NCBI GenBank assembly: GCA_026003175.1
Contig: BPGT01000005.1
Coordinates: 62,001-126,000, forward strand
Direction: 5' to 3'
Source: Armatimonadota bacterium
GTDB lineage: Bacteria > Armatimonadota > HRBIN16
DNA length: 64,000 bases
Below the pieces are notes generated by a model. The model ran no database searches. It was not told where the DNA came from and worked only from the letters and a program-made list of their open reading frames with translations. The position numbers and the translations under genes are program-made. Positions within the stretch are counted from its first letter, which is position 1; every line of letters begins with the position of its first letter. Below are positions 10,767 through 28,276 of this stretch, one piece after another.

Positions 10767-11963
10767 GGTACTGTACTCCGCGTTGATGCGCACGTAGTCG
10801 TAACTGAAGTCACAGGTCCATACAGTGGCGTGTTCTGTGCCCTCCTGCAGGTCAATGGCGATGGTCACCGTATCCGCTTTCAACCGTTCATGCAGGTCGT
10901 GCGCGTCGAAGGCAGTCGGCTTGCCGTCGGCGTACACCAGCGTTCCCTGCAGGGCGATTTGCGCCCTGTCGGGGTCAAAGTCCACCCCGCTGCGCCCCAT
11001 CGCCGCCAGAATGCGCCCCCAGTTGGGGTCGTTGCCGAAGAGGGCGGTCTTCACCAGCGGCGACTCCGCCACCGTCTTCGCCATCCGGCGCGCCTGCGTG
11101 AAGGTAGGTGCACCGCGCACCTCAATCTCCACCAGCTTGGTAGCCCCCTCGCCGTCCCACGCGATGCGCTGAGCCAGGCGAATGCACAGTTGCTCTAAAG
11201 CCAGCTGGAAATCGTCCAGATAGCGATGCACATCCACGCCCGACTGCCCGTTTGCCAGAATCACCACCATGTCGTTGGTGCTGGTATCGGAATCGATGGT
11301 CAGGCAGTGGAAAGAGCGCTCCACAGCGTCCTTCAGTACCTGCTGCAGGGCGGGTGCGGGAATCTGCGCATCAGTGGTGAGGAAACAGAGCATGGTCGCC
11401 ATATTAGGTGCGATCATGCCCGCGCCCTTCGCGATACCGCCGATTCGCACTTCGCCCTCGGGGAACCTCAGGCAAACGGCTTCCTCCTTGGGCACCGTAT
11501 CGGTGGTCATGATGGCTTCGGCGGCAGCCTCTCCGCCCTCTGGGGAGAGTGCCAGCATCGCCTGCTCGATGCCCGCCTCTATCTTCTCCAGTGGCAGCCG
11601 ATGCCCGATGATGCCCGTGCTGGCGGTCACCACCTGCGCGGGAGGGCATTCCAGCAGCTGCGCCACTTTCTGCGCCATGCGCACATTGTCTAGGAAGCCC
11701 TCTTCGCCGGTAGCGGCGTTGGCGTTGCCACTGTTGGCGACGATGGCGCGGGCAACACCTGCTTCCACCACATGGCGCGAGTAGCGCACACAGGGCGCGG
11801 CGGCGCGGTTGGTCGTGAACATGCCGGCGACGGTCGCCGGTGTATCCGAAACGATGAGCGCGAGGTCCTTACCGCTGGACTTGACGCCACAACGCACTCC
11901 CGCCGCCCGAAAGCCACGCGGCGCGGTCACGGAACCAGTTATCCACTCTACAGGATATGCCAT
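10764..11963 (-). CDS. argJ: bifunctional ornithine acetyltransferase / N-acetylglutamate synthase
   Basis: Transfers acetyl from N-acetylornithine to glutamate and can also use acetyl-CoA, closing the arginine-synthesis acetyl cycle. 399 aa, the usual family length. The autocleavage site is visible as GEGATKL, with Thr the nucleophile of the beta chain. FGNDPNWGRILAAMGRSG and the C-terminal YVRINAEYST are typical. The gene looks intact, although the RHS-core remnant starts at its last codons. Four bases separate it from the upstream transaldolase gene, so the two are probably co-transcribed. Confidence 0.96.
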   Translation of the reverse strand: MAYPVEWITGSVTAPRGFRAAGVRCGVKSSGKDLALIVSDTPATVAGMFTTNRAAAPCVRYSRHVVEAGVARAIVANSGNANAATGEEGFLDNVRMAQKVAQLLECPPAQVVTASTGIIGHRLPLEKIEAGIEQAMLALSPEGGEAAAEAIMTTDTVPKEEAVCLRFPEGEVRIGGIAKGAGMIAPNMATMLCFLTTDAQIPAPALQQVLKDAVERSFHCLTIDSDTSTNDMVVILANGQSGVDVHRYLDDFQLALEQLCIRLAQRIAWDGEGATKLVEIEVRGAPTFTQARRMAKTVAESPLVKTALFGNDPNWGRILAAMGRSGVDFDPDRAQIALQGTLVYADGKPTAFDAHDLHERLKADTVTIAIDLQEGTEHATVWTCDFSYDYVRINAEYST

Positions 11964-11967
11964 TACC

Positions 11968-12624
11968 TTAAAAGATACTCGCCCCGGACTTCTGCCAGTC
12001 CGTCAGGAAACGCTGGATGCCGATGTCCGTCAGCGGGTGTTGATAGAGCTGCTCCAGTACCTTGAACGGTACGGTGCAGGCGTGTGCCCCCGCCCGTAAA
12101 GCCTCCACCACATGCATCGGGTGACGCACGCTGGCAACCAGCACCTGGCTCTGAAAGCCGTATTCCTTGATCATATTCACCGTGTCGCGCACGGCGTTCA
12201 TGCCTTCCCCGCTGATGTCGTCTACGCGCCCGACAAAATTGCTGATGTAATACGCTCCTGCCTTTGCCGCCAAAAACGCTTGTGAGAGGCTAAACACCAG
12301 CGTGACGTTACAGCGAATACCCTCTCGCGAGAGTGCCCTCACTGCCTTCATGCCCTCTTTGGTCATCGGGATTTTGACCACGATATTGGGATGCCAGCTG
12401 GCGACCTCACGCGCCTCGCGGATCATCCCCTCCGCATCGAGGCTAACAACCTCCGCGCTGATGTCGCCCGGGTTGACGATCTCGCAGATTTCGCGCACGA
12501 TGTCCTTGAACGGGCGTCCCTCCTTTGCCACCAGCGAGGGGTTGGTGGTCACGCCCTCAATCGCTCCCCAGCTCCAGGCGGTCTTAATCTCCTCGATGTT
12601 GGCGGTATCCAGAAAGAGTTTCAT
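11968..12624 (-). CDS. tal: transaldolase, small TalC/MipB (FSA-like) type
   Basis: Transfers a dihydroxyacetone unit between sugar phosphates in the non-oxidative pentose phosphate pathway. 218 aa, the size of the short subfamily. It begins [13 protein letters not shown], then [13 protein letters not shown]. The Schiff-base Lys lies in [10 protein letters not shown]. The C-terminal phosphate-binding region ([26 protein letters not shown]) is present. Start ATG 12624 follows a strong AGGAGGAGGT. A TATAAT-like element on the same strand (12664-12669) could be its -10, with no good -35. Confidence 0.95.
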
Positions 12625-12767
12625 GACCTCCTCCTCTTGCCTTTGGTTATCGCTGTCGGTTGTATTATAGCGCACGACTACCTGAGGATGGATTTAGACA
12701 CCTTTTCATCGCATGAAGCTGTCATAGCGACGCCACAACAGCGTCCGTGTGCCATGTGCCACTCCCC

Positions 12768-13206
12768 CTATACCAGATCATCCAGCAACACGCCTTCTGA
12801 ACCGATAACGCGAGCAAAGCGAAGGTCGTTGGTCAGCAGCAAATCCGCCCCCCTGCGTGCGCATAGTTGCCCAGTGGATAGCGTCAGGAGTGCGTAAGGA
12901 CAGATGTTTCGCCCGCAGCGAGGCTGCCTCAATCAACACCTCCAGGCTAATCGGCACCAAAACAAGGTCGGAAGCCATCAGTGCCTGACGATATTCTATG
13001 AGTGCATGATTGCTACCACGCATCGGCATAATCAGGCACTCTAGAACGCTGATGTGGCTGGTGATAAGCTGAATTCGGCTGTTTTGCGCTTGCTGTAGTA
13101 AAGGTTCCAACGCAGGACGATACCGGTAATGACTCTCCACGACATAGACCGGAACGTTGGCGTCGAGGTATATGGTTGTGCCTTCGGCAACGTTTAATCC
13201 CGCCAC
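12768..13206 (-). pseudogene. PIN-domain (VapC-like) toxin with G-run frameshift
   Basis: PIN nucleases are Mg2+-dependent RNases of toxin-antitoxin pairs. The first acidic motif (TIYLDANVPVYVVE), the central Glu (SVLECLIMP) and LRTPDAIHWAT are present. The frame then goes wrong in a run of six G. Removing one G restores GADLLLTNDLRFARVIGSEG and VLLDDLV with a stop at 12768-12770, the normal family ending with its last Asp. As written, translation gives an unrelated tail ending at 12778. GTG 13206 overlaps the antitoxin by 13 bases. It could be a real mutation, slippage or a base-call error. Confidence 0.85.
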
Positions 13207-19793: not shown

Positions 19794-20891
19794 CTATCCA
19801 CCCAGCTGGCTCATCCCTCTGCCTACCGGTACTATTCCCTCCGCCAGGTAATGGCGCTCTGGCTTGTGGGCAACGGTATGCAAGAATAGACGGCGTATCT
19901 CCTCCTCTCCCTTGCCCTGGCGCAGGGGGGTGCGCAGGTCTACCTCTCCGTCCGCCATTAAGCAGGGACGCAGGAAACCATCCGCGGTCAAGCGCAGGCG
20001 GTTGCAGCTCGCGCAGAAGTCATGGGTGACCTGGCTGATAAATCCCACCGTACCCCGTGCTCCCGGTAGACGAAAGGTGCGAGCAGGACCGTTTGTGACT
20101 ATCTCTGCAGGTTCCAGAGGAGATACCTCCTGTTCGATGCGCTGCCGCATCTCATCTACCGGTACAAACAACCGGCGCATCTCTGCTGCACTCAACATGC
20201 TGTGTGAAGCGTGCCGCGGCTGAATAAACTGGAAAGTGGCTTCGTCGGCGTGCGCGAAAATACGGCTTCGGAAGCGCTGTTGCAAAAACTCACCGCTATC
20301 CGAACCATCGTTCCAATTGATGGGCATCAGCTCGATAAAACGTACGTGGTAGGGTTGATGCAACGTAAGGCGAGCGAAATCGGCAACCTCGTCGTCATTA
20401 AAGCCGCGCATCACCACCATGTTCAGCTTGATGGGCGACAAGCCGACCTGCTGTGCCGCTTCGATACCCTCCAGCACCTGCTGCAGAGAGCCACGCCGCG
20501 CAATATGTGCAAATCTCTCGGGATGAAGAGTGTCCAGGCTGATATTGATGCGTGAAAGGCCCGCCTTCTTCAGCTCGTGCGCATAACGCGACAGCAGGAA
20601 ACCATTGGTGGTCATAGAAACCTCGGCGATGCCCGGCGTTTGAGCAATCATCCGAACTAACTGCACGATGTCCTTGCGCACCAGAGGCTCACCACCAGTT
20701 AAACGCACCTTGCGGATACCCAAATCCGCCGCCACCTTCACGATGGTGACGATTTCCTCATAGCGCAGTATCCACTCCTTCGGGGCAACATCTGCTCCCT
20801 CTTCGGGCATACAATAGACGCACCGGAAGTTGCATCTATCTGTTACGGAGATGCGCAGGTAATCGATGGTTCGCCCGAAGGAGTCTCTCAT
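19794..20891 (-). CDS. moaA: GTP 3',8-cyclase (molybdenum cofactor biosynthesis)
   Basis: Radical SAM enzyme that converts GTP to 3',8-cH2GTP, the first step of molybdopterin synthesis. 365 aa. The SAM cluster motif is CNFRCVYC. The second [4Fe-4S] site is CASCNRLRLTADGFLRPCL. The C-terminus ends in the conserved Gly-Gly. ATG 20891 with GGAGTG upstream is preferred over the longer frame because it begins MRDSFGRTIDYLRIS, the normal family start. It lies four bases after mqnC. Its product is needed by the molybdopterin oxidoreductase at 23632. Confidence 0.96.
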   Translation of the reverse strand: MRDSFGRTIDYLRISVTDRCNFRCVYCMPEEGADVAPKEWILRYEEIVTIVKVAADLGIRKVRLTGGEPLVRKDIVQLVRMIAQTPGIAEVSMTTNGFLLSRYAHELKKAGLSRINISLDTLHPERFAHIARRGSLQQVLEGIEAAQQVGLSPIKLNMVVMRGFNDDEVADFARLTLHQPYHVRFIELMPINWNDGSDSGEFLQQRFRSRIFAHADEATFQFIQPRHASHSMLSAAEMRRLFVPVDEMRQRIEQEVSPLEPAEIVTNGPARTFRLPGARGTVGFISQVTHDFCASCNRLRLTADGFLRPCLMADGEVDLRTPLRQGKGEEEIRRLFLHTVAHKPERHYLAEGIVPVGRGMSQLGG

Positions 20892-20895
20892 CGTA

Positions 20896-21990
20896 TCACT
20901 CCAGCAGTTCGTACCGCGTATTGCGCCGACGGGGCTCGTAGCCCGCGTCACGTATCAAGCGCTCCATCTCCGCAGCGGTCGGTATGAACTTGCTACCCGC
21001 AGCGGACACCACGTTCTCCTCGATCATCGTGGAGCCGAGGTCGTTAATACCGTATCCCAGCGCGATCTGCGTAATCTTCGGTCCTTGCGTAAGGACGGAT
21101 GCCTGCAGGTTCGGTACGTTGTGTAGCATTAAACGGGCAACCGCTACTGTACGCAGATAGTCGTACCCCGTGGCTTTTTTGATGTGGGGCAGCTCGGTCT
21201 CTTCCGGCTGGAAGTTCCATGCGATAAAGGCACGGAAACCACCCGTTTCTGCTTGTAGTTCGCGGATGCGAATCAGATGCTCTACCCGGTCCTCTACTGT
21301 TTCCACGTGCCCGAACATCATGGTGGCGGTGCTGCTGATACCCAACCCGTGTGCGATACGCATACAATCCAGCCACTCGTCCACCGTATGCTTGTAGGGA
21401 GCAATCTGTCGGCGCACGCGGTCCACCAGAATCTCGCCACCACCGCCCGGGATAGATTGCAAGCCTGCCTGTTGTAACCTGCGCAGCGTCTGTTCGATAC
21501 TGAGGCGAGAGATGTGGGCGATGTAGATAATCTCTGTTGGAGAGAGTGCGTGAATGATGACCTGCGGGAACCGCTCGCGGATGCTGGCGAACAGGTTCTC
21601 GTAATAGTCTAGTTTCAGGCGGGGGTTCAAGCCGCCCTGTATCAACACCTCCACACCACCCTTGTCCACCAGCTCCTGAATCTTGGCGAAAATTTCATCC
21701 AGTGGGAGCGTGTACCCCTCATCGTGTCCTGGCACGCGGTAGAAGGAACAGAACTTGCACCGCACCCAGCAGACGTTGGTGTAGTTGATGATTCGCCCAA
21801 CCACGTAGGTCACGATGCGTTCGGGGTGAATACGCTCACGCACGGTGTTGGCAAGCGCCGCGATTTCAGGCAGGCGAGGATACCGGAACAGCCAAACTCC
21901 CTCTTCGAAGGTAAGGGACTCGCCTTCAACTACCTTGTCAGCAATATGCTCTATGGTGATGGTTTCACGCTCGGCTAAGACACGGCTCAT
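20896..21990 (-). CDS. mqnC: cyclic dehypoxanthine futalosine synthase (menaquinone, futalosine pathway)
   Basis: Radical SAM enzyme that cyclises dehypoxanthine futalosine in the alternative menaquinone pathway. 364 aa. CWVRCKFCSFYR carries the SAM-cluster cysteines. GGLNPRLKLDYYENLF, SIPGGGGEILVDRVR and FIAWNFQPEETEL are MqnC-type. The related MqnE differs in these segments. It is the first gene of a two-gene unit with moaA. It indicates a menaquinone-based respiratory chain without the classical Men route. Confidence 0.93.
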   Translation of the reverse strand: MSRVLAERETITIEHIADKVVEGESLTFEEGVWLFRYPRLPEIAALANTVRERIHPERIVTYVVGRIINYTNVCWVRCKFCSFYRVPGHDEGYTLPLDEIFAKIQELVDKGGVEVLIQGGLNPRLKLDYYENLFASIRERFPQVIIHALSPTEIIYIAHISRLSIEQTLRRLQQAGLQSIPGGGGEILVDRVRRQIAPYKHTVDEWLDCMRIAHGLGISSTATMMFGHVETVEDRVEHLIRIRELQAETGGFRAFIAWNFQPEETELPHIKKATGYDYLRTVAVARLMLHNVPNLQASVLTQGPKITQIALGYGINDLGSTMIEENVVSAAGSKFIPTAAEMERLIRDAGYEPRRRNTRYELLE

Positions 21991-22452
21991 CTTTATCCTC
22001 TCAAGAGTGTGTACTATCCATTATACCCTGTTGTGTAACGATGCAAAACGAATCCAGCCCCGGCGCATGCAAGCGGCACGACTGTGCTTCACATCCCCCT
22101 CCTGGTGCTTTGTTGAGATAAGAACTTGATATATTCACACCAAGCAACCGTAAGCGACGCCAGTCCTTTTGTCATGCTGAGCATCAGCAAAGCATCTCAA
22201 AGTATCGTTAAGACGAGATTCTTCGCTTGTGCTCAAAACCACAGACAAGCGGGACCGATTCGCCCACTCCCAACCGATTACGTGCGACAGACCAATACCC
22301 TGTTCAAAAAATTTCTATGCACAAACCACGAAAACCTGTTGACAAGATTCAATATTTTAATTATACTATATTTACCAAGATGAATATATGCACGATAATT
22401 AGCTCGGCGCGTGCGATCATGAACAACAACCATAAAAGGAGGATGAGTGTAC
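21991..22452. other. 462-bp divergent intergenic region
   Basis: Separates mqnC (minus) from the cytochrome operon (plus). It becomes AT-rich from about 22300 and holds a near-perfect sigma-70 promoter (22339-22367) and the cytochrome ribosome site. A poor open frame at 22126 shows no coding pattern. I see no riboswitch or terminator. Confidence 0.6.
22339..22367 (+). promoter_or_regulatory. sigma-70-type promoter of the cytochrome/molybdoenzyme operon
   Basis: TTGACA at 22339-22344, 17-base spacer, TATACT at 22362-22367. It lies about 85 bases before the cytochrome start, leaving a 5' leader long enough for regulation, in a stretch much richer in A and T than its surroundings. Confidence 0.85.
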
Positions 22453-22770
22453 ATGCCTCGCTTGGTAACCATTTCGCTTGCCTCGGCTGTCGTGCTGCTC
22501 CTGTTGACCACTGGAGGCGCAAGGATTGGAGGAGGTGACATTACCTTCAAGGTAAAAGGTGCTGGCAACGTTACTTTCAGCCATGAAAACCACGTAGTGG
22601 GCTACGAGCTACGATGTACCCACTGCCACGATTCGCTCTTTCTGACTCGTGCAAAGCACCGCAAGGTCACCATGAAGCAAATGCAACAGGGTCAAGCCTG
22701 TGGAGCCTGCCACAACGGCAAACGCGCTTTCAGCGTCAAGGGCAACTGCGCCCTCTGTCACACCAGGTAA
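22453..22770 (+). CDS. tri-haem c-type cytochrome (c3/c7-like), exported
   Basis: 105 aa with an N-terminal signal segment (LASAVVLLLLTTGGA). Three haem-binding CxxCH motifs are present (CTHCH, CGACH, CALCH), plus FSHENHV, whose His residues can be distal ligands as in cytochrome c7. The start is ATG 22453, ten bases after GGAGG; GTG 22447 is a closer alternative. It is the first gene of an operon with a ferredoxin-like subunit and a molybdopterin enzyme, so it most likely carries electrons to or from that complex in the periplasm. Confidence 0.9.
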   Translation: MPRLVTISLASAVVLLLLTTGGARIGGGDITFKVKGAGNVTFSHENHVVGYELRCTHCHDSLFLTRAKHRKVTMKQMQQGQACGACHNGKRAFSVKGNCALCHTR

Positions 22771-22789
22771 CCATGTAAGGAGTGAAAAA

Positions 22790-23635
22790 ATGATCAACGC
22801 AAGGGACGAACTGCACATTATTCAGGAGGATATCCGGCGCGCTCTGCGCAGGTCGAACCCACAGTGGGCGATGCTCATCGACTTGCGCCGGTGTGTCGGA
22901 TGTAAAGCGTGTACCGTTGGTTGCATGGCGGAGCAGAAAACGCCGCCTGGGATCTTCTACCGCCCCGTGTACGAGGAGGAGTTCGGGCAGTTTCCCAATG
23001 TGCGCAGAAGGTTCACCCCGCGTCCGTGTATGCAGTGCGATAACCCCCCATGTGTTGCCGCCTGCCCCAACAAGGGCGAAAAGGGTGCTACATGGAAGTC
23101 ACGCGATGGCATCGTGATGATAAACTACGAGCAGTGTATCGGATGCGGGCGGTGCGTGATCGCCTGTCCGTACAAGGCGCGCACGTTGGACGGCGGGCGA
23201 TTCTTCACCGAAGACACACCTGTTCAGCAGGAGTACGAGAAAGGACCCTCATGGGAGTACGGTAAGAAATGGGTTCGGGAGAAACACCACCTGCCTGCAG
23301 GCAACGCACGCAAATGTCATTTTTGCCTGCACCGATTAAAGCGGGGCATGGTACCGATGTGCGTGAGTACCTGCATCGCCCGGGCGAACATCTTCGGTGA
23401 CCTCAGCGACCCACAGAGCCTGATTTCGAAGATGCTCAAAACCCATAAGGTGCACGTGCTCAAAGCGGTGAAGTCGCCCGGCGAAGTGCCCACCACCCCT
23501 GCCCACCTGCGCGGTATCAGCGCACAAGCATTGGCAACACGCATCGGCTACCCGGGGGCAGTGCCCGTGTTTGCCGAATCTGCGCCGACCAAACCGCGAG
23601 TCTTCTATATCTTGCCTGAGGAGGCTCAGAAATGA
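22790..23635 (+). CDS. four-cluster [4Fe-4S] electron-transfer subunit of molybdopterin oxidoreductase
   Basis: 281 aa, the B subunit of a complex iron-sulfur molybdoenzyme. Four cysteine groups are visible: CVGCKACTVGC, CMQCDNPPCVAACP, CIGCGRCVIACP and CHFCLHRLKRGMVPMCVSTC. ATG 22790 follows AAGGAG. No signal peptide is present, as is usual for B subunits exported by piggy-back with a Tat-bearing partner. Its stop overlaps the next start (ATGA), so the two subunits are made together. It transfers electrons between the cytochrome or quinone side and the Mo site. Confidence 0.94.
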   Translation: MINARDELHIIQEDIRRALRRSNPQWAMLIDLRRCVGCKACTVGCMAEQKTPPGIFYRPVYEEEFGQFPNVRRRFTPRPCMQCDNPPCVAACPNKGEKGATWKSRDGIVMINYEQCIGCGRCVIACPYKARTLDGGRFFTEDTPVQQEYEKGPSWEYGKKWVREKHHLPAGNARKCHFCLHRLKRGMVPMCVSTCIARANIFGDLSDPQSLISKMLKTHKVHVLKAVKSPGEVPTTPAHLRGISAQALATRIGYPGAVPVFAESAPTKPRVFYILPEEAQK

Positions 23636-26600
23636 CCCGAGAGAAGAAAGGCTTTCATACAGAGGACCAGGGCGACAGCAGGATAAACCGCAGGCAATTC
23701 CTGAAATGTTCGGCTGTGCTGGGTGGCGCGCTGATGGCTTCTCAGCTGGAGTGGGCAAGCGCGCTGATGCGCCGAGCGGAGGCAGGCATGCTGTCGCCAG
23801 AAGAGGAGTATGAGCTGGCTAAGGCAGAGAATATCCTGTACTCTGTGTGCCTGCAGTGTAACACAGGATGCGGCATCAAGGTCAAACTGTTCCGGCAGGG
23901 CGATAGAGCCATCGCGCTCAAAATAGACGGCAACCCCTACAACCCGTTTACCACTCACCCGCACCTGCCGTATACCACCTCGCCACTCGCGGTGAGCACC
24001 GTGGACATGGCAATATGTCCGAAGGGGCAAGCCGGCATCCAAACCGCCTACGACCCTTATCGCATCACGAAGGTGCTCAAGCGGGCGGGCAAACGTGGTG
24101 AGAACAAGTGGATAACTATCCCCTTTGATCAGGCGATTGATGAAATCGTCAACGGTGGTAAACTGTTCGCGCACGTGCCCGGCGAGGAGAACCGGGTGGT
24201 CACGGGGCTGAAAGAGATCTATGTGCTGCGCGACCCTGCGCTTGCCAAGCAGATGGCAGAAGACGTTAAAGCTATCGCTCAGGCGAAGGATAAGAAGCAG
24301 GCGGTGGAGGAGTTCAAGAAAAAATACGCCAACCACCTGCACTATCTGATTGACCCCGACCACCCCGACCTGGGACCCAAGAACAACCAGTTTGTATATA
24401 TGTGGGGACGCAAGAAGGGCGGGCGCTCTGAGTTTGCGCTGCGCTTCTTCGCCGATTACTTCGGCACGGTGAATACGCATGGGCACACTACTGTGTGCCA
24501 GGGCTCGCTCTACTTCTCATGCAAAGCGATGAGTGAGCAATACGAGTACAACAAGTTCACCGGCGGGCAGAAGTTCTACTGGCAGGCAGACCTAGAAAAC
24601 GCCGAGTATATCGTAAGCGTAGGGAGCAATCTGTTTGAAGCCAATTATGGTCCCACCAACCAGAGCGTCAGGCTAGCGCCTCGCCTGGCGAACGGACAAG
24701 CAAAGCTGGTGGTGGTCAACCCGCGCTTCAGCAAAGCAGCTGCGAAGGCATATCGCTACCTGCCGATTAAGCCGGGTACTGACGCCGCCTTCTTCGCCGG
24801 CATCATCCAATGGCTGATTCGCAACCAGAGGTACGATGCCAAATACCTTGCCTGCGCCAACAAGGCGGCAGCAACAGAAGCCGGTGAACCTACCTGGACA
24901 AACGCCACCTGGCTGGTGAAAGTCGGTGCGGATGGTACACCCGGCAAGTTCTTGCGAGCACATGAAATCGGGCTGGCGCCGGTGGAGAAACGGGTAGACA
25001 AGGAAGGTAAAGAACACGATTTCGAATACCTCGTGGTGATGCGCGGGGGCAAACCGGTTGCGATAGACCCGAACGACGAGAAAAACGCCGTTACCGGCGA
25101 CCTGTTTGTGGACACCGAGCTGAACGGGATACGGGTGAAGAGCGCTTTGCAGATTATCGCCGAAGCGGCGAACGCCAGAAGCCTAGAGGAATGGGCGCAA
25201 CTCTGCGGCATCCCCGCTAGCGAGATTGCTACCGTTGCAGAAGAGCTGGCTCAGCACGGCAAGAAAGGCGTCGTGGACGTTCATCGCGGCGTTGCCCAGC
25301 ATACTAATGGTTTCTACAACGTGGTCTCGGCAATGAGCATTAACCTGCTGCTGGGCAACTTTGACTGGAAAGGTGGTATGATTGTCGCCTCCACCTACAA
25401 CACTGCAGGTACCAAGCCGGGACAGCCGTTCAATTTGGATAGCCTCAAACCGGGCAAGCTTACCAGGTTTGGCATCAGCATCATCCGCCACGACGTGAAA
25501 TATGAGGACACCACTCTCTTTGCAGGCTACCCCGCAAAGCGCAACTGGTGGCCGCTTTCCAGCGACATCTACGAGGAGATTATCCCTTCTATCGGCGATG
25601 CCTACCCCTACCCCATTAAGGCGCTGTTCATGTACATGGGAGCGCCAACCTACGCGCTCCCCGCAGGACACACCAACATTGAGGTGTTGACCGACCTGGA
25701 GAAGGTGCCACTGTTCTTCTGTAGTGACATCACCATCGGTCCCACCTCGCTGTACGCGGACTACATCTTCCCCGACCTCAGCTACCTGGAGCGGTGGGAG
25801 ATGCACGGCTCACATCCCAACATGCCGGTCAAGGTACAACCGATACGGCAGCCGGTCATCGCGCCGCTGACGGAAACGGTGACGGTGTTCGGGGAGAAGC
25901 AACCTTGCAGCTTCGAGGCGGTTCTGCTCGCGCTTGCCGAGAAGCTGGGCATGCCCGGGTTCGGTCCCAACGGCTTCGGGGAAGGGCAACCGCTTACTCG
26001 TCCAGACGACTTCTACATCCGAATGGTGGCGAACGTCGCGCTGGACGGCAGTCCCGTACCTGATGCAGACGATAAAGAGGTGCAGCTGTTCCTGAATGCC
26101 CGCAAACACCTGCCCCAAACCGTATTTGCCCCTGAACGCTGGCAGCGCATTGCGGGAGCAAACTGGCGAAAAGTGGTGTACGTGCTCAACCGCGGAGGGC
26201 GGTTCCAGGAATATGCAGAGGTCTACAAGGGCGAGCAAGTGTCTAACAAGTACGGCAAGCTCATCAACCTCTATCAGGAGAAGACCGCCAGCACCAAAAA
26301 CGCCTTCACCGGCGAGCCAAACCCGGGCTACGCAACCTACATCCCCATCGTTACTACGCTGGGCGAGCCTCCCTCAAAAGCGGGGATGGAGGATGGCTAT
26401 CCCTTGCACCTGATTACCCAGCGAGACATCCTGCACACCAAATCACGCACGGTGGTGGATTACTGGCTGCTGGCTCTGCGCATCGAAAACGAGGTGCTGA
26501 TCCACCCCCAAGATGCCCAGAAGCTGGGGCTGAAAGACGGTGACCGTGTGAAGGTGGTCTCCGCTACTAACCCTTCTGGCGAGTGGGACCTCGGCAACGG

Positions 26601-26874
26601 CGTCAAGAAGCCAATGATCGGCAGGGTGAAGACCACCCAGACCATCATGCCGGGAGTGGTCACTTTCACACTGGGGCATGGACACTGGGCTACCGGCTCC
26701 AGCGATATAACGATTGATGGCACGGTAGTCAAAGGCGACCCGCGACGCGCACGAGGAATCCACGCCAACGCGGCGATGTGGGTAGACCCCTACCTGAAAA
26801 ACACCTGTATGCTTGACCCGGTAGGGGGAAGCGTTTCGTTCTACGATACGAAAGTGAAGCTCGTCAAAGTGTGA
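23632..26874 (+). CDS. Tat-exported molybdopterin oxidoreductase catalytic subunit (tetrathionate reductase-like clade suspected)
   Basis: 1080 aa bis-MGD enzyme of the DMSO reductase superfamily. A twin-arginine signal (RINRRQFLK, Arg20-Arg21) is followed by a [4Fe-4S] motif with Cys73, Cys76 and Cys80, and a later Cys in AICPKGQ. The likely Mo ligand is Cys289 in HTTVCQGS. Cys ligation and the length over 1000 aa suggest the TtrA/PsrA/arsenate or selenate reductase branch rather than formate dehydrogenase (Sec) or DMSO reductase (Ser). About 60 lysine-rich residues (200-260) seem inserted before the Mo-ligand region. C-terminal MGD-binding parts (LHLITQRDILHTKSRT, VTFTLGHGHWATGS) are present. 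The substrate is unknown. Confidence 0.9.
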   Translation: MTREKKGFHTEDQGDSRINRRQFLKCSAVLGGALMASQLEWASALMRRAEAGMLSPEEEYELAKAENILYSVCLQCNTGCGIKVKLFRQGDRAIALKIDGNPYNPFTTHPHLPYTTSPLAVSTVDMAICPKGQAGIQTAYDPYRITKVLKRAGKRGENKWITIPFDQAIDEIVNGGKLFAHVPGEENRVVTGLKEIYVLRDPALAKQMAEDVKAIAQAKDKKQAVEEFKKKYANHLHYLIDPDHPDLGPKNNQFVYMWGRKKGGRSEFALRFFADYFGTVNTHGHTTVCQGSLYFSCKAMSEQYEYNKFTGGQKFYWQADLENAEYIVSVGSNLFEANYGPTNQSVRLAPRLANGQAKLVVVNPRFSKAAAKAYRYLPIKPGTDAAFFAGIIQWLIRNQRYDAKYLACANKAAATEAGEPTWTNATWLVKVGADGTPGKFLRAHEIGLAPVEKRVDKEGKEHDFEYLVVMRGGKPVAIDPNDEKNAVTGDLFVDTELNGIRVKSALQIIAEAANARSLEEWAQLCGIPASEIATVAEELAQHGKKGVVDVHRGVAQHTNGFYNVVSAMSINLLLGNFDWKGGMIVASTYNTAGTKPGQPFNLDSLKPGKLTRFGISIIRHDVKYEDTTLFAGYPAKRNWWPLSSDIYEEIIPSIGDAYPYPIKALFMYMGAPTYALPAGHTNIEVLTDLEKVPLFFCSDITIGPTSLYADYIFPDLSYLERWEMHGSHPNMPVKVQPIRQPVIAPLTETVTVFGEKQPCSFEAVLLALAEKLGMPGFGPNGFGEGQPLTRPDDFYIRMVANVALDGSPVPDADDKEVQLFLNARKHLPQTVFAPERWQRIAGANWRKVVYVLNRGGRFQEYAEVYKGEQVSNKYGKLINLYQEKTASTKNAFTGEPNPGYATYIPIVTTLGEPPSKAGMEDGYPLHLITQRDILHTKSRTVVDYWLLALRIENEVLIHPQDAQKLGLKDGDRVKVVSATNPSGEWDLGNGVKKPMIGRVKTTQTIMPGVVTFTLGHGHWATGSSDITIDGTVVKGDPRRARGIHANAAMWVDPYLKNTCMLDPVGGSVSFYDTKVKLVKV

Positions 26875-26880
26875 GCGTAC

Positions 26881-26906
26881 CCTGTGCAGGAGCATTCCTG
26901 CACAGG
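26881..26906 (+). terminator. strong intercistronic hairpin
   Basis: CCTGTGCAGGA and TCCTGCACAGG form an 11-bp perfect stem with a 4-base loop, seven bases after the molybdoenzyme stop. No T-run follows on the plus strand, so it may stabilise or attenuate the mRNA rather than end it before the porin gene. Confidence 0.6.
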
Positions 26907-26953
26907 GAAATCACAAAAAAACATCAAATCACATTCAGGAGGTAACCTGAAGT

Positions 26954-28276
26954 ATGTTCGGGGGAACCCTTAGCAGGTGCGTGCATGTGCGACGATACCA
27001 ACTACGCACACAGAGGATGCTTTTGCCGGCGCTGACGCTGGTGTTTGTGCTAACCGCTGCCGGATGGGGACAACAGTCGACAACGGTGCAGGACCTACAG
27101 GCGGAGATCGCCCGCCTGCGCGAGCGCGTGGCAGAGCTGGAATCGTTGAGAACGCAGCTGGGCAAACTGGAACAGCAGCTGCAGGAACTGCAGAAAACGC
27201 AGAAAGCACATGCGCCCACAGTAGCGACCGCCAACAAGGAGGCGAAAATCGCTATCGACGGGCGCACCTTTGCGGGCATTTTCGGCTCGCAGAAAGACGG
27301 CAGTTTCGCCAACCGCAGCATGGATATCCCCGATAGTAAAATCCGCTTCGCATTCACTCCCTCACCGTATATCACGGTAGTCAATCGCTTCAGCACCAAC
27401 CGCGCCGCTACCGGTGGCTTCGACTACTTCTACATGGATCTGAAGGACTGGGCGGGCGCATGGCGTGGGCACACCCTGCGCATCGGTAAGCACAAACTGG
27501 ACATCGGGCAGGAAACATGGACGGACAACCCGGTGGAAAGTATCGTGATTACCAACGCAGTATCGCATATCTCCGGCTACGATGAAGGACTGAACCTGCG
27601 CGGGCCGCTTTCCACAGGCGCCCATCCGTGGACTTACTCCATCGAGCTGGTTAACGGCAATCAGGGCTTTGTCGCTGCACCGGCGGAGCTCACGTGGGGT
27701 GTCAAAGTGGGCGGACTGCTCACAGACAAAATATACCTGTCCCTCAGTTACCTGCGCACCGGCAACCTGGTAAAGCGAGACGGCACGCTGGACAAGCCCG
27801 ATTTCAACATCGCAGAGGTGTTTGACCCGCCGGCGGGGGCAACAGGCTGGCGGCGTAGCCTCTGGGAGATAGACCTGCGCTACGGATACGGTAAAGAGGG
27901 CATTAAGTCCATCGTAGGCAGCGAGGCGGACGAACCCTGGCAGCTGGCACTGGCGTACGGACGCTTCAACGACAACGCTGAGGGCGCGCCGGACCGCAAG
28001 GGTAGCTACGGCTTCATCGAAGCGCTGTTTAACCTGACGCCCAAAGCGTATCTGGGACTGCGCTTCAGTCAGATTGCGCTGGACGACGGCGCCACGGCCA
28101 AACTGGCAGGCAGCCCGGTGGCGGTAAATAAATACCGCAGGTACTCCTTCGGGCTGGGCTACCGGTTATCGCGCCTGACGCATCTCAAGACGGAGTACAC
28201 CGTCAACGATACCAGCGGCGGCGCAACCAGCCCTGACCTGAATCAGTTCGCCTTGGGCGTCGCAACGAAGTTCTGA
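26954..28276 (+). CDS. porin-like outer-membrane beta-barrel with N-terminal coiled coil
   Basis: 440 aa. A signal-like hydrophobic stretch (LLPALTLVFVLTAAGWG) is followed by a coiled coil at about residues 48-85 (IARLRERVAELESLRTQLGK), then alternating beta strands typical of a barrel, ending in ...LGVATKF with terminal Phe. The coiled coil plus barrel matches OprP/OprO-like or putative porins. ATG 26954 has AGGAGG upstream. Its place after the molybdoenzyme suggests substrate or product passage across the outer membrane. Confidence 0.82.
   Translation: MFGGTLSRCVHVRRYQLRTQRMLLPALTLVFVLTAAGWGQQSTTVQDLQAEIARLRERVAELESLRTQLGKLEQQLQELQKTQKAHAPTVATANKEAKIAIDGRTFAGIFGSQKDGSFANRSMDIPDSKIRFAFTPSPYITVVNRFSTNRAATGGFDYFYMDLKDWAGAWRGHTLRIGKHKLDIGQETWTDNPVESIVITNAVSHISGYDEGLNLRGPLSTGAHPWTYSIELVNGNQGFVAAPAELTWGVKVGGLLTDKIYLSLSYLRTGNLVKRDGTLDKPDFNIAEVFDPPAGATGWRRSLWEIDLRYGYGKEGIKSIVGSEADEPWQLALAYGRFNDNAEGAPDRKGSYGFIEALFNLTPKAYLGLRFSQIALDDGATAKLAGSPVAVNKYRRYSFGLGYRLSRLTHLKTEYTVNDTSGGATSPDLNQFALGVATKF

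Follow-up and report, generated by a model that had tools for sequence, protein, structure and literature searches.

A cytochrome-linked, TtrA-related molybdoenzyme operon without NrfD in an Armatimonadota bacterium and its possible connection to arsenic

RESULTS

The window analysed here, a stretch of 64,000 nucleotides from an Armatimonadota bacterium of hot-spring type (contig BPGT01000005.1, positions 62,001 to 126,000), carries a tight operon of four genes, all on the plus strand, that encode a triheme cytochrome c7, an FeS electron-transfer subunit, a catalytic Mo-bisPGD subunit and an outer-membrane porin-like protein. The original prediction, made from the sequence, had described this gene order, with a cytochrome of three CxxCH motifs, a four-cluster FeS subunit, a Tat-exported Mo subunit of about 1080 aa with Cys289 as predicted ligand, a porin-like barrel and no NrfD-type subunit, and all of this was borne out. 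Its coordinates (22339–28276) hold except at the 5′ end, where 22339 lies ∼110 bases upstream of the first codon.

The cytochrome gene begins at 22447 (GTG) or 22453 (ATG) and ends at 22770. Its product matches PF14522 with 67 bits and TIGR04257 (‘nanowire_3heme’) with 93.4 bits at a cut-off of 40, has three CxxCH motifs, the first at about 22615–22629, and starts with what looks by eye like a Sec-type signal peptide; it can be aligned with homologues adjoining the same operon in other phyla. The FeS subunit (22790–23635, plus strand, ATG start, 281 aa) was assigned from Fer4 families and from its 16 Cys residues, which form four [4Fe-4S] motifs, and its best solved relatives are PsrB and ArrB. 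No signal peptide is evident in this protein, which is probably exported together with the Mo subunit. The gene of the latter (23632–26874, plus strand, 1080 aa) overlaps the FeS stop by 4 bases and was identified by Pfam and NCBIfam matches, the Molybdopterin domain of Pfam among them, by invariant residues and by a structure model. Its N-terminus has a Tat signal (a weak PF10518 match and the motif ‘INRRQFLK’, with R20 invariant), the N-terminal cluster Cys73/76/80/129 is invariant, and the predicted Mo ligand Cys289 (codon 24496–24498) is kept in 43 of 43 aligned homologues including TtrA. Both subunits belong to the CISM/DMSO-reductase family, in its Cys-ligated periplasmic branch.

The porin-like protein (26954–28276, plus strand, 440 aa) may truly start at an internal Met near 27017. 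It was recognized from its structure model and a Foldseek search, since no Pfam family was found for it; a signal is followed by a coiled coil and a barrel of about 16 strands, and the C-terminal residue is F. The best Foldseek match is OprP (2o4v, E 1.8e–12), with OprO, Omp32 and DcaP also found, and because the quality of the model is modest (pLDDT 60.5) we read this match as favoring ‘porin’ over ‘phosphate porin’. Porins that adjoin the same operon in three Omnitrophota are 32–33% identical to that of the window, and unrelated or distant barrels adjoin it in Armatimonadota, Methylomirabilota, Acidobacteriota, Planctomycetota, Myxococcota and Ignavibacteriota, three of the adjoining barrels being PF07396 phosphate-selective porins. 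The suggestion that the porin serves a charged oxyanion gains support from this recurrence in distant phyla.

Upstream of the operon no inverted repeats were found. Divergent from it, on the minus strand (19794–21990), lie an MqnC-like gene for menaquinone and the molybdenum cofactor gene moaA; several unrelated loci likewise have moaA close to the operon. The window genome is close to Bacterium HR16, where the Mo gene is 94% identical. The identical four-gene order is kept there and in another MAG of the genus, with 93–94% identity, so it is not a product of chance. In a further Armatimonadetes MAG (RSWS16, locus L086) the Mo and porin genes are both fragmented, by decay or by assembly errors.

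A homologue scan, in which each species was represented by a single genome, found 78 loci from 15 phyla or more, with Mo subunits mostly 55–76% identical over their full length. To our knowledge no function has been assigned to this family, and we know of no assayed member. The window Mo subunit stays far under every equivalog cut-off: it scores 468.9 bits on the curated TtrA model (cut-off 1750), 215 bits on PhsA (cut-off 694) and 109.7 bits on ArrA (cut-off 1600). TtrA is thus by far its best curated match, and our trees held no ArrA, PsrA, SrdA or PAE1265 rows. All 37 family members tested match the TtrA model and none reaches its cut-off, the top score being 568 bits (L095, E 3e–170), whereas a true, plasmid-borne TtrA scores 2076 bits and is 29% identical to the window protein. 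The active-site stretch is HGHTTVCQGSLYF in the window Mo subunit versus GAHGAYCGLAYR in TtrA. The structure model (pLDDT 84) has polysulfide reductase PsrA as its top fold match (Z 32.4; 677 residues aligned at 27% identity), and for ArrA Z is 30.1 over more residues. Judged by these scores, the family appears to be related to TtrA; it is widespread and has no curated model of its own.

Three operon types occur among the relatives, FeS-NrfD-Mo, which is found in most family members, cytochrome-FeS-Mo and FeS-Mo. The 27 cytochrome-FeS-Mo loci all group within one clade (39 rows, SH-aLRT 98) of an 88-row tree of Mo subunits; the other rows of this clade are 10 FeS-Mo and 2 incomplete loci, and none of its operons has NrfD. 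The sister clade (21 rows) is of the NrfD type, and the FeS-NrfD-Mo order is also found on most of the deeper branches. The same picture came from a 45-row mixture-model tree, which supports the NrfD-less clade with 97/92. Some deep branches (L041, L089, L068, L071, L104 and L054) are FeS-Mo with no NrfD detected, which makes more than one loss of NrfD probable, while the gain of the cytochrome, as far as the trees tell, looks single. Since the window sits in a well-supported, NrfD-less and cytochrome-rich clade next to an NrfD-type sister, phylogeny backs the earlier proposal that the cytochrome replaces NrfD. Both NrfD and the triheme gene are missing from ten of the 39 operons, which shows that this position can do without the cytochrome. 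The other Armatimonadota are mostly of the NrfD type and lie elsewhere in the tree (L102–L107), and only some members of the window’s genus carry the operon. This distribution makes horizontal acquisition of the window copy probable, the source being probably Nitrospirota- or Thermodesulfobacteriota-like.

We also searched the host genome for other means of electron supply. One NrfD-type protein, at C1:207836, belongs to an alternative complex III with an adjoining cytochrome oxidase, and was rejected as a partner of the operon for that reason. Another is part of a cytochrome-FeS-NrfD set at C1:420739–423204 (L098, 7739–10204), which consists of a tetraheme cytochrome, a Tat-type FeS protein and NrfD, and has no Mo subunit. 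It was rejected as well: none of the nine other genomes searched from the class has a match to this NrfD, and its absence from the other operon-bearing genomes of the genus means that it does not act as a general partner. No donor of the NapC/NrfH/CymA type (PF03264) was found in the window’s genome. By elimination only, alternative complex III becomes a candidate reducer of the c7 cytochrome.

The neighborhoods of the relatives contain several arsenic-linked genes. An ACR3 arsenite pump is present at 11 of the 78 loci. A genome search returned roughly a single copy in each genome, and at this frequency the expected number is about 0.4. For nine of the 11 loci the coordinates are in agreement, eight of them over the cut-off, and at L071 the gene is about 10 kb off. 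ACR3 occurs at 6 of 21 loci of the Geobacter-side clade, at 4 of 40 NrfD-type and other outside loci, and in the window’s clade at L047, where it is accompanied by ArsR.

A PhnD-like binding protein adjoins the operon in ∼15 loci, usually with a histidine kinase and a response regulator. Among solved structures it matches ArrX best (E 3e–60), next AioX, far above PtxB and PhnD; a second member gave the same ranking, and TtrS, taken as a control, gave no match to ArrX. The arsenic pocket of ArrX (Y88, C106, Y131, S161, S163, H192 and D210; PMC5908839) is kept in 14 of 16 neighbors; position S163 is often Thr, and in one case D210 is unclear. Neighbors that keep the pocket include those at L022, L025 and L074 of the window’s clade. 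Arsenate (Kd 1 μM) and phosphate are ligands of ArrX, while tetrathionate, selenate and antimonite are not bound, on a list of tested compounds that does not include antimonate (PMC5908839).

PstS-like, pst or phoU genes adjoin at L021, L023, L078, L131, L133 and L137, at L021 as a pst-phoU set directly upstream of the operon, and in Geobacteraceae a PstS-like gene is followed by a chemoreceptor-like gene. In one genome (G368) two Mo-gene copies lie ∼10 kb apart with PstS-like genes between them (L131 and L132), and a similar pair in G370 is broken by frameshifts or stops. In Geobacter sp. OR-1 (L078) the operon is divergent from arsR-arsC-acr3-usp-arsA. The second arsenic island of this strain was described as containing resistance genes only (PMC4319506); at ∼6900–15900 of L078 and upstream, this ‘resistance only’ island adjoins a full cytochrome-FeS-Mo operon, and PstS-like, chemoreceptor-like and ArrX-like genes are found in the same neighborhood.

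The host itself gives no such indications. ACR3 was found neither in the window’s genome nor in any of the ten genomes of its class, and no PhnD/ArrX protein over the cut-off was found in the window’s genome, so the substrate has to be read from the relatives. In the window’s own subclade (17 loci) arsenic-linked genes are present only at L022, L025, L047 and L074. TtrSR regulators are absent from the surroundings of the window operon, and regulators near its relatives carry the ArrX-like sensor instead.

DISCUSSION

We give an even chance to the reading that the operon encodes a periplasmic respiratory oxyanion reductase, related to TtrA and linked to a cytochrome, whose most likely substrate is arsenate. 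We infer the following course of events. An oxyanion would cross the outer membrane via the porin and be reduced by the Mo-bisPGD subunit with its Cys289 ligand. Electrons would arrive at the Mo site via the four clusters of the FeS subunit and the N-terminal cluster, the FeS subunit being fed by the triheme cytochrome c7 and not by a quinol-oxidizing NrfD subunit. The cytochrome would in turn be reduced by an inner-membrane component, which may be alternative complex III or some other quinol dehydrogenase. Since c7 cytochromes usually have low potentials, reduction is favored over the opposite direction. That the enzyme works in reverse, as an oxidase of arsenite or of another donor that passes electrons via the cytochrome to alternative complex III or a terminal oxidase, is conceivable because a cytochrome oxidase adjoins alternative complex III in the host genome, and ArxA is an ArrA-like enzyme able to run as an oxidase (PMC10100899), but we find it very unlikely, as many relatives come from strictly anaerobic groups and the linked sensor is nearest to arsenate-binding ArrX and not to AioX.

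The substrate had been left open, with sulfur, arsenic, selenium and others considered; neighbor genes of the relatives narrow it to an arsenic oxyanion. Arsenate is suggested by ACR3, the ArrX-like sensor, PstS and pst genes, the OR-1 island and the PF07396 porins, and also by Melioribacter roseus, which respires arsenate without Arr and has an arsenate-responsive gene of the TtrA clade beside ArrTSR and ars genes (PMC5492636). The TtrA-clade enzymes of M. roseus and Pyrobaculum have been proposed to be arsenate reductases. As far as their descriptions allow a comparison, MROS_1076 of M. roseus and PAE1265 of Pyrobaculum aerophilum, both of the TtrA clade, would resemble the window enzyme, a putative member of that clade, in being Mo enzymes proposed for arsenate, and the M. 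roseus gene shares its position beside ArrTSR and ars genes with many loci of our family. Unlike the window enzyme, that of M. roseus is described with a membrane subunit (TtrABC).

The main rival is a dissimilatory antimonate reductase of the AnrA type, or an enzyme of broad As/Sb range, because arsenic resistance genes serve both metalloids: they export antimonite too, and the neighborhoods would look alike. AnrA of Geobacter sp. SVR is described as a DMSO-reductase-family enzyme linked to metalloid respiration in Geobacter, and Geobacteraceae carry our Mo family beside ars genes. However, the ligands of ArrX are arsenate and phosphate and not antimonite, on a list that does not extend to antimonate (PMC5908839), and PstS-like and phosphate-porin neighbors suit tetrahedral arsenate better than octahedral antimonate. 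We therefore consider antimonate unlikely, though it deserves to be kept in mind.

Similarly doubtful is a reductase for tetrathionate, polysulfide, selenate or an organic S- or N-oxide. This could be expected from the curated matches, led by TtrA with 469 bits, from the fold, which is nearest to PsrA, from the membership of SrdA in the same larger clade (PMC10100899) and from a host in which the arsenic genes searched for (ACR3 and PhnD/ArrX) were not found. The score is, however, far under the TtrA threshold that a true TtrA passes, the active site reads unlike that of TtrA, and the neighbors point to arsenic. The known sulfur enzymes differ from the window operon in other respects as well. 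TtrABC has in common with it a Cys-ligated Mo subunit of ∼1000 aa and a four-cluster FeS subunit, and with its NrfD-type relatives the FeS-NrfD-Mo order, but the identity is low, the motif around the Cys ligand is another one, and the window’s clade has a c7 cytochrome and no NrfD. PsrABC and PhsABC, closest by solved fold, are smaller and contain the NrfD-type PsrC, and the PhsA cut-off is far from being reached.

ArrAB, the established arsenate reductase, resembles the proposed window enzyme in being a two-subunit periplasmic Mo/FeS enzyme of comparable fold. It is fed by the cytochrome CymA in Shewanella, and some ArrAB systems are regulated by ArrXSR. Yet the window protein belongs to a separate lineage, at 110 bits against 1600, and its genome has no CymA-type gene.

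A broader proposal, which we make tentatively and with less confidence than the reading of the operon itself, is that of a separate family of respiratory arsenate reductases, present in 15 phyla or more, whose quinone-reacting NrfD module gave way a single time to a soluble c7, so that what had been a membrane-bound quinol oxidase became a periplasmic enzyme fed by a cytochrome. If true, some cases of arsenate respiration without canonical Arr could be explained by a cytochrome-fed family. Arsenate respiration is usually tracked by arrA alone, and if the family does reduce arsenate, a widespread enzyme has been missed in surveys of arsenic release in soils, aquifers and hot springs, including one that in Geobacter sp. 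OR-1, used as a model of arsenate respiration, lies beside an arsenic island. Because a cytochrome stands in for the quinone module NrfD in part of the family, nature has here also provided a clean experiment on such an exchange, of relevance to how these complexes conserve energy.

Two further loci show other arrangements. In Carboxydocella thermautotrophica (Bacillota, L068) the FeS-Mo pair is followed by a 16-heme cytochrome with an N-terminal hydrophobic anchor (11673–12893), which may be a further type of electron donor, and ArrX-like sensor genes lie beyond it. On a conjugative plasmid of Citrobacter arsenatis (L112, 502–16065), two ars clusters flank a distantly related FeS-NrfD-Mo operon (32% identity), and similar genes are found on other enterobacterial plasmids.
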